From positions 1 through 52,873 of the forward strand of contig NZ_JAAHGO010000064.1 of the NCBI RefSeq assembly GCF_010672455.1: a DNA stretch of 52,873 nt, read 5' to 3'. A program made the position numbers and the translations under genes. Under the pieces are notes generated by a model. That model ran no database searches. It had not been told where the DNA came from and saw only the letters and a program-made list of their open reading frames with translations. Of the stretch, positions 44,156-50,841 are shown piece by piece (positions within the stretch are counted from its first letter, which is position 1; the number at the start of each line of letters is the position of its first letter). The DNA is from Okeania sp. SIO2C9 (lineage in GTDB: Bacteria > Cyanobacteriota > Cyanobacteriia > Cyanobacteriales > Microcoleaceae).

Positions 44156-46114
44156 ATGACTACTTATTTATTTGAAAACTTCTTGGGGCTTTCTTTGCCA
44201 ATGTCAGAACTACAAGAAGTCCCCCCAATAGCAGATGGTCCAGCTTTAGGAAGTTTCAATGCTTTTTTACCAGGGAATACATTACTAATAGAGGGACGCT
44301 ATGGCGGACTATCAAGCCCTTTATTTCCTGTAGGAGCAGTAGACTCAGAGGGAAATCCTCAAAGCGCAATTCATGTTCATGAGGCTGAAGCAGGTCAGAA
44401 TGGGGATATTGTCCGCAACTTAACGGTATCAGAGTTTGATGATACTACGGGTATATTTAATGGTGCTTTTACTCTCACAGATGCAGAAACAGAAGCAGCA
44501 GCAGCAGACGAGTTTTATATAAATCTACACACAGATAATAATCAAAGTGGAGAGCTACGGGGACAGGTCATTTTTTTAGACGATCTAGAAGTAGCAGTAA
44601 GTCTAGGGTTGCCCATGTCAGAAGCTTTTGAGGTACCACCAGTAGCAGATACCCCCGCAGAAGGAATAGTAGATGCCATTTTGATTGGTGATAACTTATT
44701 AATACAAGGAACTTTTTCAGACTTATCAAGCGATTTATTTCCAGTTGGCAATGCAGACTCACAAGGAAATCCTCAGAGCGCCATTCATCTGCATCAGGGA
44801 TTAGCTAATTCTAATGGTGGAATTATTCGTAACTTCGATGTAATTGATAATGGTGATGGGTCAGGTGGATTTTTTGGTAATTTTACTTTAAGTTCCGATG
44901 AAGTAGTCGCTGCTGAGTCAGGGAATTTGTACATCAACCTCCATACAGACAATAATCAGAGTGGAGAATTACGCACTCAGGTTCTGCTCAACGAAACAGA
45001 TCCAACAGGAGACGAGCTAGTAACATTTTTACCGATATCAACTGTTCAACAAGTCGATCCAGTCGCGCCTAGCGACGGTTCAGGATCTTTTTATGCGGCT
45101 CTCTCTGGCAATACTCTCAATATATCCGGTGGTTTTTCCGTTGTATCAAGTGATTTGTTGAATGTCGGACCCTCCGAGGACTCAGAGGGAAACCCTCAAA
45201 GTTCAGTTCACCTTCATTTGGGTGGACTTGGCGAGAATGGTGATATTTTACGCAACTTGACTGTAGTTGAAACTGATGGTGTTGGTGAAGGTTTCTTCTC
45301 TGGTAGTTTTACTCTGGATGAAACTGAAGTTGCAGCAGTAGAGTCAGGAGAAGTTTATCTTAATCTGCACACAGTAAATAATCCCAGTGGTGAGTTGCGC
45401 GGACAGGTGATATTAGAAGATTTGGATACTGTAATTCCTCAAGAGGATGTGGTTTTTAATGGAGACAACCGGGATAACAATATTGATGCAGGTTTTGCTA
45501 ACGATATAGTAAGAGGTTTTGCTGGAGACGATCGATTAAATGGACTCGCAGGTGACGATCGCATCATTGGTGGTGATGGTAGGGATTATCTAATTGGTGC
45601 TAATGGAAACGATACTCTATTAGGCCAGGATGGTAATGATCTTTTAGTAGGTCGCCCTGGGTTCGATATATTGCTTGGTGGAGATGGTGATGATACTCTC
45701 AATGGTGGGCAAGGTCGCGATCGCCTGAATGGTGGCCCTGGAAACGATGAGTTAAACGGTGGAGCTAGCATAGACCGATTTATCTTTAACACTAACGATG
45801 AGTTTGATTCTCAAGACATAGGTATAGACCAAATTAATGATTTTAATAGTGGGCAAGATAGAATTTTGCTTGGCTTGGGAACCTTTACTGCTCTAGATAG
45901 TTCCCCTGGTATTGGTTTATCTACAGATGATTTTGCCATTGTTTCTAGTGAAGTTGATGCTGCAACTGCTGAAGCTGAAATTGTTTACAACTCCGCTAGT
46001 GGAGCATTGTATTATAATGCCAACGGTACTGAAGATGGGTTTGGTAGTGGCGCTCAATTTGCCACATTAGACGGCAGTCCAGAGTTAGTAGCTAATGATT
46101 TTCAAGTTAGATAG
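44156..46114 (+). CDS. Triple CHRD-domain protein with RTX calcium-binding repeats
   Basis: A 652-residue protein. Three CHRD-type domains occupy about residues 10-140, 150-280 and 290-430, each containing SAIHVHEA / SAIHLHQG / SSVHLHLG and YINLHTDNNQSGELRGQV-like strings. Next come glycine-rich calcium-binding nonapeptides (about 455-540: GGDGRDYLIGANGNDTLLGQ), then a C-terminal region of RTX type (IDQINDFNSGQDRILL). There is no N-terminal signal; such proteins usually leave by a type I exporter that reads the C-terminus. CHRD domains are named from chordin; their bacterial role is unknown, perhaps adhesion or surface display. The three domains arose by internal duplication. Confidence 0.92.
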   Translation: MTTYLFENFLGLSLPMSELQEVPPIADGPALGSFNAFLPGNTLLIEGRYGGLSSPLFPVGAVDSEGNPQSAIHVHEAEAGQNGDIVRNLTVSEFDDTTGIFNGAFTLTDAETEAAAADEFYINLHTDNNQSGELRGQVIFLDDLEVAVSLGLPMSEAFEVPPVADTPAEGIVDAILIGDNLLIQGTFSDLSSDLFPVGNADSQGNPQSAIHLHQGLANSNGGIIRNFDVIDNGDGSGGFFGNFTLSSDEVVAAESGNLYINLHTDNNQSGELRTQVLLNETDPTGDELVTFLPISTVQQVDPVAPSDGSGSFYAALSGNTLNISGGFSVVSSDLLNVGPSEDSEGNPQSSVHLHLGGLGENGDILRNLTVVETDGVGEGFFSGSFTLDETEVAAVESGEVYLNLHTVNNPSGELRGQVILEDLDTVIPQEDVVFNGDNRDNNIDAGFANDIVRGFAGDDRLNGLAGDDRIIGGDGRDYLIGANGNDTLLGQDGNDLLVGRPGFDILLGGDGDDTLNGGQGRDRLNGGPGNDELNGGASIDRFIFNTNDEFDSQDIGIDQINDFNSGQDRILLGLGTFTALDSSPGIGLSTDDFAIVSSEVDAATAEAEIVYNSASGALYYNANGTEDGFGSGAQFATLDGSPELVANDFQVR

Positions 46115-46141: not shown

Positions 46142-46269
46142 TATCATGTTCGGATAATTAGTGACCAAAAAAGTTTTTGTTTTTAGAATTGCTTGAGCCA
46201 GTGAGATACCTATATTAGGCTAGAGCAATACTACGAGCTGTAATTATAACTATTCAACCGGACATGAGA
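46142..46269. mobile_element. MITE, TATCATGTTCGG ends, decayed right duplication
   Basis: The left end follows TTA; the right end CCGGACATGAGA is followed by TCA, so one side has mutated. The core (GCTAGAGCAATACTACGAGC) matches copies at 25387 and 50730. A weaker end, AAACGGAGATGATATCA, lies just beyond at 46322-46338. Confidence 0.75.
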
Positions 46270-46659
46270 TCAGCAGGGAGAAAGAAAGTATTAGGAGGAG
46301 AAACTTTTTCGATGGCTAATTAAACGGAGATGATATCAAGCTATCAAATTTTATATTTATTTTATATTTTATTTATATTTATTTTATATTATTTCCTCTT
46401 TTTTTGATCAAAAAAACTGTATTAAAAAATACAAATTATCTAGATTGTATTGTTTCTTAAAATCAACAAAATTCTCTTGACACTTGGATAGATCGGTGAG
46501 TAGGATGAGTTTGTTAGATTTAATTCAATGTGACAAAGATCCGTCCCCAAAAAAATTAGTTAAAAATTGATGACAGCTAACAAAATCAAACATCTTAACT
46601 TTTTTTCTGGTGGATACATAGACGCAAAGTATGTGGAAAATGTTGAAAACTATCACATT

Positions 46660-46966
46660 CATCATAAAAATTCGGTAAGTGGGAAACCACCGTCTTTTAA
46701 GCGGTGGATGGAAACGACTCGACGGGCAATAAAGCGTAGTCAAAAAAATGTGTTATTATTAATTAATAACTTAAAAAGTAGACTCAGTGGCCTTTTGGTC
46801 GGAGAGAGTAGTGGCAATTGGCACCGTAAGCGTGGACTGCTGCTGTATACGTACTACGGTACGGTACTGGCAATGTGGTTGTTTCGAGCAATGTGAAAAT
46901 CCTGATTTTAACCCGATTTACAGCTCCTCTGAAGAATCCACGCGACTTTAGTCCGTGGAGTGTCAA
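46660..46966 (+). mobile_element. Non-autonomous IS200/IS605-type element with both end hairpins
   Basis: Left hairpin CCACCG-tcttttaag-CGGTGG (46687-46707) and right hairpin CCACG-GAC-TTTA-GTC-CGTGG (46938-46958) are followed by AGTGTCAA. No transposase frame lies between them. The left boundary is uncertain. The right end carries the GTG at which the next reading frame opens, so its insertion may have cut off the true start of that gene. The stretch 46270-46660 is A+T-rich with no clear gene. Confidence 0.65.
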
Positions 46967-47593
46967 AACCGTACTATTGTCGTCAACACTCAAGAGTCAG
47001 ATGCATATCTGAACGAAACTAATTTAAGTATTATTCCAGCTTTCTCATCAACTATCCTTAGTGATACAGTCATTAAAGAAGCAAAATCTCTACTTTTGCT
47101 TGAGGTTGTAGAAACTAAAAACATTGGTAAGATTGTTTTTGAATCTGGATGGGATCTATTAGGCAATTTCCCTGGTTCCGACTTTCCTAAAGATGTAACC
47201 CTTTGGAAGTCTCCCCAAGATGAAGCGGGTATCATAGAGGTCGATCCATATTTTATGGCAAGGCAATCAACAAAGCCAAGTCAGCAAGAAAAATTTGCTG
47301 TCAAGGTCAACCTATGGTATGCTCCTTCTCATACTGATTGTGCTATCCACAATCAACATGACTTTTTGGAGATTCATACTCAAGTCTTTGGACAAGGACG
47401 AATGCAGAAGTTCAAAGTCAAAAAGTTTGATAGTCTCTATGAAGATTTGATTATGACTGAGGGATACACTCAGATAGTACCCTTCTGTGAAGTCCACGAA
47501 AACCAGCAATATACCTATCCGTGGCACCAGTATTACTCAGATACAGACTGTATCTGGATGGCTATAGAATATCACCCAAAAAAAGAATTCTAA
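46955..47593 (+). CDS. Cupin-fold protein next to the glucan lyase; 5' end probably replaced by a transposon end
   Basis: Up to 212 residues from the GTG at 46955, which lies inside a transposon end hairpin; the natural start is probably lost or further inside. The cupin signature is clear: His132, His135, Glu139 and Gly146 in HNQHDFLEIHTQVFG fit H-x2-H-x3-E-x6-G. The second motif has GYTQIVPFCEVH and His191 in PWHQYY. There is no signal peptide. The stop is 20 bases before the glucan-lyase ATG, so the two are co-transcribed. The fungal enzyme that processes 1,5-anhydrofructose (aldos-2-ulose dehydratase/isomerase) also uses metal-binding cupin domains. A role as an anhydrofructose dehydratase or ascopyrone isomerase is therefore a hypothesis, not shown by sequence alone. 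The base composition is more A+T-rich than the downstream gene. Confidence 0.72.
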   Translation: MECQNRTIVVNTQESDAYLNETNLSIIPAFSSTILSDTVIKEAKSLLLLEVVETKNIGKIVFESGWDLLGNFPGSDFPKDVTLWKSPQDEAGIIEVDPYFMARQSTKPSQQEKFAVKVNLWYAPSHTDCAIHNQHDFLEIHTQVFGQGRMQKFKVKKFDSLYEDLIMTEGYTQIVPFCEVHENQQYTYPWHQYYSDTDCIWMAIEYHPKKEF

Positions 47594-47613
47594 CCAAGGA
47601 GAATAGTCAAATT

Positions 47614-50600
47614 ATGTCCAACGAAATTTTTCCCAGCGATCGCGTATACAAATTTCTCAAGGTAGAAGAATATTTTGACCGCTACAAAGAATGGGAGCAA
47701 CTGGGATCGGTAGAAAGTCATTCCTTCAATGGGGATAAAAAGACTTTGAGCCTGAAATTCAAGAAGGCCAATGGCAGCGATTGCCTGATGTTGATCGAGG
47801 TAATTCAGAACGATACATTGCGGGTGCGCTTTAACCCAACCAAATCAACAGAGGCCCAATACAGCAGTTTCAGTCACTTGCTGAAACACCGCAACTTCGA
47901 TGAGGCGGACGAGGAAACCAGGCAACAATATATCTTCGATCTAGATTATAAAGAAGACAACGGCCAGATCGTCTTGACAACGAAGTCTCAATATAACCAG
48001 ATCGTGATGAAAGTAGTTGTCACCTTGGCTCCCTTTGGAATCAATGTCTTCAACAACTCCCCATCCAATTCGGAATATGCAGAAATTCCAGTCTGGCAAA
48101 CCGCAGACACACCAATTTACTACACTCCCCATTCAATAGACCCCAATAACCCAGAAGATTATGCCATCATCCAAGCGGTGAAGAAGCCTTCTAATGGCAA
48201 ATATATTGGGTTTGGGGAACAGGGAGGAACCAAACTCAGCAAAAATAGCGACCAGTTGAATTATTTCAACTTCGATAATATGCGGTATCGACAGGTCTAC
48301 AATCGCGGACCTTTAGATAACCGCGAGCCTCTTTACCACTCGGAGCCGTTCTTTTACGAGTTCAATGGCATTCCCGGCAGCAAGAACGTCAATGCTGTTC
48401 TCCTGGACAACCCCTCTCAAGTCTTCATTGATATTGGCTATAGTAACTCCGGTCGCTATATGTTAGGCACCCGCTTTGGGGACATGGACTACTATCTGCT
48501 CTTGGGAGAAGACCCGAAGAACATCTTGGATAGCTTTACCGCAATTGTTGGCCGCGCCGAGTTGAAACCGCGTTATGCCCTGGGATATCACCAAGGTTGC
48601 TATGGGTACGAATGTGCCGCCGACCTCAAGTGGGCTGTGGAAAAATATCGGCAGTATCAAATTCCCCTTGATGGTCTGGCGGTGGATGTGGATATCCAAG
48701 AAAACTACCGGACTTTCACCATCAAGCCAGATTACCAAACGAATAAGAACGCGCCCTACGAGCAAACCTTCGGCAGTCATAAGGAGATGTTCAGTTGGTT
48801 GCGTTCACAAGGTGTCAAGTGCAGCACCAACATCACCCCCGTGATCAGCAGCCAAGATAAAAACAACCCTGGTTACTACTCAACCTATAAAGAGGGATTA
48901 GAGAAGGGCTACTTTATCACAGACCAGCGGTACGATGCGGACAATCCAGACAGCAAATACTACCAACTGTGGGGTCTCTATGGTCCCGGTACGGTAGGCT
49001 GTCCCAATAATGGCTGGGTTGAAGGTGACAGTTACAACAGTGGCCAACCTTACATCGGTGAAGTGTACTACGGACCAGATGCCAATGGCCAACCTATGGG
49101 AAGCCCAGGTCACTACTCAGATTTTGCCCGTTCAGAAGTCCGTGAATGGTGGGGTAAGCAATATACATATCTGTTCGATCAGGGACTAGAATTTGTCTGG
49201 CAGGATATGACCACTCCGGCGATCCGTCAAAACCGTGGGGATATGAAGGGCTTACCATTCAAACTGCTGGTGAACAGCGACTTTGAAGGAACAGTGGAGT
49301 TGAAGCCATCTCTCAAAGTCTGGAACTTGTACTCCTACAATTTGCACAAAGCCACCTACGAAGGACTCAATAAACTACCCGGACGGGAGAACACGCGCAA
49401 CTTTATCATTGGACGTGGTAGCTATGTTGGTTCTCACCGATATGCAGGGTTGTGGACTGGGGATAACTCTTCCGACTGGGATTTCCTCCAGATGAATATT
49501 TCCCAAGTCCTGTCTCTAGGTATGCACGCCTTGGCAGTCACAGGTCAAGATATCGGTGGCTTTGAAGAGGCAGCTTATGATAGCGGCAAGTGGGCGAATC
49601 CAGAATTGCTGATCCGCTGGACTGGTGCAGGGGCTTTCTTACCCTGGTTCCGTAATCACTACGTTCGTAAAGGGCGCAAAGAGTTCCAAGAACCCTTCCA
49701 ATATGTAGAGTGGTTTAATAACTATAAGGGCGGTAATATCCCAGAACCCCAAGATTTGTATCGCATGGTTCCCGATATTTGTCGGCATTACATTACATTG
49801 CGCTACCGACTGATGCAGTTGTTCTATGATGCCTTGTTTGAGAACACTCTGAATGGAATGCCCATCTGTCGTCCTTTATTCCTCAACGATCCTCAAGATG
49901 AATCCCTCTACAATGATAAAGACGAATTCCTAAACAACGAATTCTTTGTCCGCAAGGATCTGCTGATTGCTCCAGTGTTGCGCCCTCAATATGAAGACAA
50001 CAACAATGGTCGGCGGGATGTCTATTTGCCCAAAGGTAGCAACTGGTATTGCTTTGTGGATAACGTTATGCCTCTTGGTGCTGCGACAGAAGGAGGCACA
50101 ACGATACGGGATTTTGATGCCAACATCAATGTCAATGGCGATCACATTCACTTTATTGTTCCAATCTACGTCCGTGCAGGGGCAATTATTCCGACTATCG
50201 AAGTGGAACAATATGTGGGACAGTTGAATGCAGAAGGTAAGCCCAATCCTATTACCCTGAATGTCTATCCAGGGGAGCAAGGGGAATACAGTATGTATTT
50301 GGACGACGGGGTGAGCCGTTCTTCTGCTCCCAAAGCAGATGTGGACGATCCAAACGCCAACGACGAATATCGCGAGACCAAGATTACCCACAGCTATACT
50401 AGCGAAAAGATGCGGGAAATTAAAGTGGAGCGCGTCCACGACGGGTATACGCCGCCTTTCGAGAAGTATTTCTTCGTGGCCATATTGCATGATCCAAGCG
50501 AGCAGCGGGGTGCTACTGGTCCTTTGAGGGGTGTGATTCTCCAAGATCAATACTTACAAGCGATCAAAGGTGCTACTCCAGAAGAACGCAGTCAGCATCT

Positions 50601-50709
50601 GCAAAATGCTACCAGCAATGCTTGGTATTATAACGATCATATCAACATCAGTTTCATTAAGGTGTTTGATTATTCTCCTTATATTTCGATCCAGGTAGAG
50701 TATGTTTAA
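47614..50709 (+). CDS. GH31 alpha-1,4-glucan lyase-like enzyme
   Basis: A 1031-residue enzyme from the ATG at 47614, preceded by AAGGAGA; the frame is open 31 codons further up, but that part overlaps the cupin gene. Length and phrases match the red-algal glucan lyases: LKPRYALGYHQGCYGYE, PLDGLAVDVDIQENYRTFT, GVKCSTNITP and FVWQDMTTPA. The catalytic Asp is 531 in WQDMTTPA, where hydrolases of GH31 have a different context. Asp617 in LWTGDNSSDW and the Asp of TGQDIGGFE are also present. There is no signal peptide, so the likely substrate is intracellular glycogen or starch, cleaved by elimination to 1,5-anhydro-D-fructose. An alpha-glucosidase cannot be fully excluded without assay. The gene is visibly more G+C-rich than its neighbours, which suggests transfer. 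Confidence 0.88.
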   Translation: MSNEIFPSDRVYKFLKVEEYFDRYKEWEQLGSVESHSFNGDKKTLSLKFKKANGSDCLMLIEVIQNDTLRVRFNPTKSTEAQYSSFSHLLKHRNFDEADEETRQQYIFDLDYKEDNGQIVLTTKSQYNQIVMKVVVTLAPFGINVFNNSPSNSEYAEIPVWQTADTPIYYTPHSIDPNNPEDYAIIQAVKKPSNGKYIGFGEQGGTKLSKNSDQLNYFNFDNMRYRQVYNRGPLDNREPLYHSEPFFYEFNGIPGSKNVNAVLLDNPSQVFIDIGYSNSGRYMLGTRFGDMDYYLLLGEDPKNILDSFTAIVGRAELKPRYALGYHQGCYGYECAADLKWAVEKYRQYQIPLDGLAVDVDIQENYRTFTIKPDYQTNKNAPYEQTFGSHKEMFSWLRSQGVKCSTNITPVISSQDKNNPGYYSTYKEGLEKGYFITDQRYDADNPDSKYYQLWGLYGPGTVGCPNNGWVEGDSYNSGQPYIGEVYYGPDANGQPMGSPGHYSDFARSEVREWWGKQYTYLFDQGLEFVWQDMTTPAIRQNRGDMKGLPFKLLVNSDFEGTVELKPSLKVWNLYSYNLHKATYEGLNKLPGRENTRNFIIGRGSYVGSHRYAGLWTGDNSSDWDFLQMNISQVLSLGMHALAVTGQDIGGFEEAAYDSGKWANPELLIRWTGAGAFLPWFRNHYVRKGRKEFQEPFQYVEWFNNYKGGNIPEPQDLYRMVPDICRHYITLRYRLMQLFYDALFENTLNGMPICRPLFLNDPQDESLYNDKDEFLNNEFFVRKDLLIAPVLRPQYEDNNNGRRDVYLPKGSNWYCFVDNVMPLGAATEGGTTIRDFDANINVNGDHIHFIVPIYVRAGAIIPTIEVEQYVGQLNAEGKPNPITLNVYPGEQGEYSMYLDDGVSRSSAPKADVDDPNANDEYRETKITHSYTSEKMREIKVERVHDGYTPPFEKYFFVAILHDPSEQRGATGPLRGVILQDQYLQAIKGATPEERSQHLQNATSNAWYYNDHINISFIKVFDYSPYISIQVEYV

Positions 50710-50729
50710 GATCGAGTTACATCAATGAA

Positions 50730-50841
50730 TATGATGTCCGGATAATCAGTGATAGTTTGTAGTAGGGTTTGAGCAATATCTATTCTTAGAGCTAAAGTCC
50801 TACTACAAGCTTGAATTATAACTATTCAACCGGACATGATT
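50730..50841. mobile_element. MITE, TATGATGTCCGG / CCGGACATGATT ends
   Basis: Slightly decayed ends of the TATCATGTCCGG family. The core GTAGTAGGGTTTGAGCAATA...GCTAAAGTCCTACTAC folds as a hairpin and matches 25387. It lies 20 bases after the lyase stop and could act as a transcription end. Beyond it, to 51080, I see GAAGTCA tandem units and no gene. Confidence 0.75.

Follow-up and report, generated by a model that had tools for sequence, protein, structure and literature searches.

The contig NZ_JAAHGO010000064.1 of the cyanobacterium Okeania sp. SIO2C9 (52,873 bases, analysed entire and referred to here as the window; the genome comprises 10.9 Mb in 317 contigs) carries a gene for a GH31 protein of the alpha-1,4-glucan-lyase type, preceded by the interrupted gene of a cupin related to fungal aldos-2-ulose dehydratase (AUDH). 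Judged from sequence, bacteria seem to encode a pathway for 1,5-anhydrofructose in which AUDH is split into two genes, and the window probably holds a lyase and split-AUDH cassette that is decaying in this strain. The full bacterial cassette would consist of three genes, encoding the lyase, an AUDH-type beta-propeller and an AUDH-type cupin. The GH31 protein would be a cytosolic alpha-1,4-glucan lyase, splitting 1,5-anhydro-D-fructose off glycogen ends by elimination. The propeller is the expected dehydratase, acting on anhydrofructose, and the cupin the expected isomerase, steps that we assign by analogy with the fungal enzyme; together they would represent its two catalytic parts, encoded separately. 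Fungal AUDH converts 1,5-anhydrofructose to ascopyrone M and then to microthecin, binds zinc at one site in its propeller and another in its cupin part, and ends in a C-terminal lectin domain.

Is the GH31 protein of the lyase type? The open reading frame (ORF; 47614-50709, plus strand, start codon ATG at 47614) encodes 1,031 amino acids. It matches the GH31 catalytic domain with E=1.5e-71 and is the sole match to this family in its own genome. The three phrases from which a first-pass annotation of the DNA had proposed a glucan lyase of this length, WQDMTTPA, GYHQGCYGY and GVKCSTNITP, are all present, as is the aspartate pair expected of GH31, D531 (in WQDMT) and D617 (in WTGDN), presumably the catalytic residues. 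No signal peptide was seen by eye in this protein. Searched singly against the PDB, the protein finds as its closest sequence the alpha-1,4-glucan lyase 2x2h of Gracilariopsis (EC 4.2.2.13; E=1.1e-54), followed by porcine maltase-glucoamylase (8.5e-53). The nucleophile motif reads WQDMT in the window protein and in the algal lyase, and all 27 other cyanobacterial GH31 proteins that were retrieved have WNDMN instead. D-M-T recurs in 44 of the 46 loci of the lyase family, the exceptions being one frameshifted locus and one fragment; one of the two patterns used to find these loci included WQDM, without the T. When 34 family members are aligned with the algal lyase and 16 hydrolases, 26 diagnostic sites are common to the family and the algal lyase and not found in hydrolases, as opposed to 2 that the lyase has in common with hydrolases and not with the family. 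The predicted structure (mean predicted local distance difference test score, pLDDT, of 82) retrieves 2x2h first by E-value (4.0e-56) among the matches listed, with a query-normalised template-modelling score (TM-score) of 0.77, the other 49 listed reaching at most 0.69. Motif, diagnostic sites and the fold match to 2x2h thus support the lyase-type assignment.

Window protein and red-algal lyase share GH31 architecture, a length of about 1030 residues, the WQDMT and TNIT motifs and the aspartate pair; they differ in that the former is bacterial, only distantly similar (30–34% identity) and belongs to a family linked to AUDH-type genes. Cyanobacterial GH31 proteins of about 780–810 residues, which we take to be alpha-glucosidases, have the same catalytic domain family, but carry WNDMN and lie on the opposite side of the tree. 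The window gene is intact and, from comparison with the 95% identical lyase of Okeania sp. SIO3B5, appears to be under purifying selection (ratio of nonsynonymous to synonymous substitution, dN/dS, 0.13). By these sequence criteria its product very probably cuts stored glycogen to 1,5-anhydrofructose.

The lyase and the cupin travel together. A survey of 386 cyanobacterial genomes, among them that of the window, finds the cupin in 4, and precisely these 4 also have a lyase-type GH31: three of these lyases are full length, and the fourth (G278) is a C-terminal remnant beside an intact cupin; genome G312 has a full lyase with the cupin as a 3' fragment only. Named contigs with the lyase provided the 46 loci; the label is Cyanobacteriota for 28 of them and another for 18, so the lyase is not specific to cyanobacteria, several of the 18 being metagenome bins whose labels may be wrong. 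A cupin lies near the lyase in 26 of the 46 loci, that is, in 23 of the 28 cyanobacterial ones and in 3 of the 18 others (one of them partial). Two of the five cyanobacterial loci devoid of a nearby cupin have at most 120 bases upstream. The proposal that the gene pairing would be found in other genomes therefore holds. In the genus Vibrio the cupin was found in 1 of 148 genomes and in the Paenibacillus family in 1 of 104, the starting genome each time, which suggests that it reached these hosts by transfer.

Clustering of all ORFs neighbouring the lyase yielded a third recurring family, the propeller. A propeller of at least 100 residues adjoins the lyase in 11 of the 46 loci, and propeller and cupin are both present in 10; hosts of an intact trio include Plectonema cf. 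radiosum and Oscillatoria princeps. The genes are ordered propeller-cupin-lyase in all seven cyanobacterial loci whose propeller reaches 100 residues, and cupin-propeller-lyase in a Gastranaerophilales bin. Paenibacillus filicis and Vibrio penaeicida have the order lyase-propeller-cupin, and on a Polarisedimenticolaceae contig the lyase is followed by a propeller shortly before the contig ends. That linkage is kept across three gene orders argues for a shared pathway. A representative bacterial propeller has a single PDB match, aldos-2-ulose dehydratase 4a7k (E=1.5e-75), and all three propellers tested pass Pfam PF22301, AUDH_beta_propeller. Five histidines are invariant in the eight of 11 propellers that were aligned (A4); four of them align with His 155, 215, 295 and 337 of 4a7k, and a threonine stands opposite the fifth. 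AUDH is described as having a 7-bladed VCBS-type propeller (PMC8023676). The bacterial propeller shares homology with the Phanerochaete enzyme (PDB 4a7k/4a7y) across about 410 residues, including four of the five invariant histidines, and the bacterial cupin is predicted to be similar in fold to the AUDH cupin part. The fungal enzyme is a single chain of 900 residues, whereas each of the 10 loci with both parts encodes propeller and cupin as ORFs of their own; in the window strain the propeller was not found and the cupin gene is broken.

How firmly is the cupin tied to AUDH? Full-length homologues measure about 234–258 residues (280 for one ORF, whose listed start lies further upstream). In four of four full-length cupins scanned with Pfam at E values up to 1, the sole match is PF18637, AUDH_Cupin, at E 0.0002–0.065, short of the family cut-off; the window cupin has no Pfam match at E 0.001. 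Residues H132, H135, E139 and H191, which we take to be the cupin metal motif, are kept in 21–22 of 22 aligned cupins, that of the window included (alignment A3, 22 of the 28 cupins from 26 loci, G278 and the window). Searches of the PDB by sequence, with single cupins and with a profile, found no chain, so that a fold search was needed. The AlphaFold model of the intact Plectonema cupin (mean pLDDT 91) fits AUDH with a whole-chain query-normalised TM-score of 0.61, the other 49 listed matches scoring at most 0.35. The first-pass annotation had related the cupin to the fungal anhydrofructose enzyme and proposed a structural comparison with it; the fold of this intact homologue, the weak AUDH_Cupin matches and the AUDH-type neighbour propeller all agree with that link.

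Several observations weigh against a split-AUDH cassette. The absence of any PDB chain in the cupin sequence searches is one; the Plectonema fold search moreover ranks BacB and oxalate decarboxylase above AUDH, which is third (E 3.7e-7), and the fit has a root-mean-square deviation of 8.1 at 12% identity. Fifteen of the 18 non-cyanobacterial loci have no nearby cupin, several of these contigs being short. A further point is the distribution of the propeller. Where cyanobacterial loci have both cupin and lyase (23 loci), it adjoins in 7 and lies on another contig in 1; no full-length propeller was found anywhere in the other 15 genomes, which include Hormoscilla, Trichodesmium, two Nostoc, Tolypothrix and Paraprochloron. 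The genome search covered 34 of the 46 loci: the propeller profile gave some match in 13 genomes and full-length matches in just 5 (in the L046 genome on another contig), the remainder being low-scoring repeats or short remnants. The cupin may therefore do something else in these hosts, and the lyase could be real while the cupin catalyzes a different single step on anhydrofructose, such as an isomerization, with no microthecin made. We regard this as a serious possibility, though one with less than an even chance. Drafts and metagenome bins account for several of the 15 genomes, and the three genes stand together in 10 of the 46 loci, in three orders, as would be expected of one shared pathway. 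A wider version of the split-AUDH cassette, in which several phyla, mainly cyanobacteria, maintain a full glycogen-to-microthecin pathway for chemical defence with a two-protein AUDH, the fungal AUDH is a later fusion of such bacterial genes and the window lineage is losing the pathway until only anhydrofructose production is left, seems to us rather doubtful; the ecological role, like the catalytic activities, is something we infer.

In the window itself, the split-AUDH cassette would have come apart. The cupin gene is interrupted: its N-terminal stretch (5' remnant, 46570-46662, plus strand, inside the ORF 46567-46896), recognized by eye from its resemblance to the start of intact cupins, is followed by an element of about 300 bp (46663-46965, borders approximate, plus strand) and then by the rest of the gene (46955-47593, plus strand). 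The resulting 212-residue ORF starts inside the right end of the element and lacks the first 31 or so family residues. Its stop at 47593 leaves 20 bases to the lyase ATG at 47614, the spacing given in the first-pass annotation, which had also described the cupin as having an intact metal-binding signature; the metal residues are indeed kept, but the gene is not intact. The element has 33 matches in its own genome, itself counted, and seven further copies spanning at least 293 of the 295 bases searched, at 77–91% identity. In an alignment of the eight copies, the window's included, both ends are common. A longer relative with these same ends carries an OrfB_IS605 (TnpB) gene, and the insertion is therefore a non-autonomous element of the IS200/IS605 type. 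An AUDH-type propeller was not found in the window's genome (best E 0.33; no PF22301 match). The proposed operon making ascopyrone-type products thus finds no support in this strain. With the lyase intact, the cupin gene cut and the propeller not found, anhydrofructose, or a product made from it by another enzyme, would be the likely end point. From these sequences, the strain most likely makes anhydrofructose and can no longer process it, and we read the cassette as decaying, reduced to anhydrofructose production.

Could the truncated cupin still be made, from a GTG inside the element, and still function? Its 3' part has neither stop nor frameshift, keeps the presumed metal residues and shows dN/dS of 0.04–0.06 relative to its relatives. 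However, low dN/dS can predate a recent insertion, and the missing residues, about 31, form two strands in the model of the intact homologue. Okeania SIO3B5 lacks the cupin on its syntenic contig, where a TnpB-like remnant (recognized by eye) precedes the lyase, and a search of the whole SIO3B5 genome found none either; this genome-wide look-up covered 19 of the 46 loci. We consider a functional truncated cupin improbable, and retain decay of the cassette as the preferred reading. Cupin and lyase, 20 bases apart, also seem to have different histories, because synonymous divergence to Hormoscilla (L040) is 1.78 for the cupin part (46967-47590) and 0.28 for the adjoining lyase. The proportion of G and C at third codon positions (GC3) is 0.53 in the lyase gene, 0.35 in the cupin part and 0.17–0.41 in ten other genes of the window; the lyase value hints at acquisition from a donor of higher GC content.

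The assignment of the GH31 protein as a lyase has its own counterarguments. When a 3-sequence profile is compared with the PDB, porcine maltase-glucoamylase scores above the algal lyase; since the order flips in this way, plain scores are indecisive. The algal lyase is just 30–34% identical to the bacterial family over the aligned part, compared with 23–27% to hydrolases, and the hydrolase set is 27–31% identical to the window protein. The active-site loops of the lyase model are of low confidence, a bacterial GH31 dextranase is a close second in the fold search (E 1.6e-54), and when the TM-score is normalised to the length of the target the lyase, at 0.78, is surpassed by several shorter hydrolases (maximum 0.87). 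In the GH31 tree, a branch with a Shimodaira–Hasegawa-like approximate likelihood-ratio support (SH-aLRT) of 100 separates the hydrolases from the remaining sequences, the algal lyase among them. That lyase, however, is the only algal one in the tree and sits on a long branch, and a topology holding it with the hydrolases is not rejected by the approximately unbiased (AU) test (p=0.838); in the unrooted tree this topology is equivalent to the algal lyase lying just outside the bacterial clade. The phylogeny, proposed earlier as a check, shows no grouping of the family with the hydrolases; its attachment to the algal lyase is left weak by the single long branch and the AU result. Six lyase loci that are broken, split or short (L056, L070, L072, L080, L082 and L084) are absent from both trees; the final one includes 14 of the 27 other GH31 loci and omits seven near-duplicate lyases, and the lyase alignment (A5) holds 32 sequences. 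That the protein is instead an ordinary alpha-glucosidase or transglucosidase, with lyase-like motifs by ancestry and neighbours in another sugar pathway, is very unlikely: the profile result, the mutual closeness of GH31 folds and a GH31 alpha-glucosidase making anhydrofructose, listed among the references of a 2025 review (PMC12441222) and placing the two activities not far apart, speak for it, but D-M-T in place of D-M-N, the ratio of 26 to 2 diagnostic sites, the lyase as best query-normalised fold match and conserved neighbours related to an enzyme that takes anhydrofructose as substrate all speak against it.

Passages of the same 2025 review attribute glucan lyases to fungi and red algae, and the further products to fungi, and present bacterial use of anhydrofructose as catabolism only (PMC12441222). 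Anhydrofructose-degrading genes are reported from a marine single-cell genome (PMC6003095), and the word lyase does not occur in two thirds of the text of a 2024 review of prokaryotic alpha-glucan enzymes (PMC11046441). Among titles and abstract openings of the open-licence literature we found no bacterial glucan lyase with AUDH-type genes; subscription papers may list bacterial members. A linked bacterial cassette offers genes open to expression and knock-out, would allow ideas on where the algal and fungal enzymes came from to be tested, and suggests that common cyanobacteria may be a source of antimicrobials or antioxidants derived from anhydrofructose.

Upstream of the cupin-lyase pair lies a gene for a CHRD-domain protein with RTX-type calcium repeats (44156-46114). 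A short repeat with inverted ends occupies 46145-46267, and a second copy, identified by its genome matches, is found downstream at 50729-50839. A mobile cassette bounded by these two repeats was considered and dropped, because the repeat has 49 matches across its own genome, the downstream copy counted; we judge this genome-wide litter to lie outside the cassette.

A divergent lyase-type GH31 branch with the motif WQDMTD (L074, L075, L079, L080 and L083; Pseudomonas, Acidobacteria and Telmatospirillum) has as its neighbour a recurring protein that looks exported and carries a CxxCH motif; for the lyase copy of L079 there is no Pfam match at E 0.0001. The propellers of Vibrio (L077, 13388-14902) and Polarisedimenticolaceae (L078, 6465-7811), unlike the cyanobacterial ones, have an apparent N-terminal signal peptide by eye, and in such hosts dehydration might take place outside the cytosol. 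Another cyanobacterium (G360, L117, 161-8514) has a stand-alone AUDH-type propeller but no lyase or cupin match; the propeller lies near genes for a GMC oxidoreductase, a ferritin-like protein and a xylose-isomerase-like protein. The best PDB matches of the oxidoreductase are glucose and fructose dehydrogenases; pyranose oxidases match far weaker, and a pyranose-oxidase link of this propeller is therefore only suggestive. In Oscillatoria princeps, from which a characterised pyranose oxidase is described (PMC11650716), a cytochrome P450 gene (L069, 4357-5754) lies upstream of the trio.

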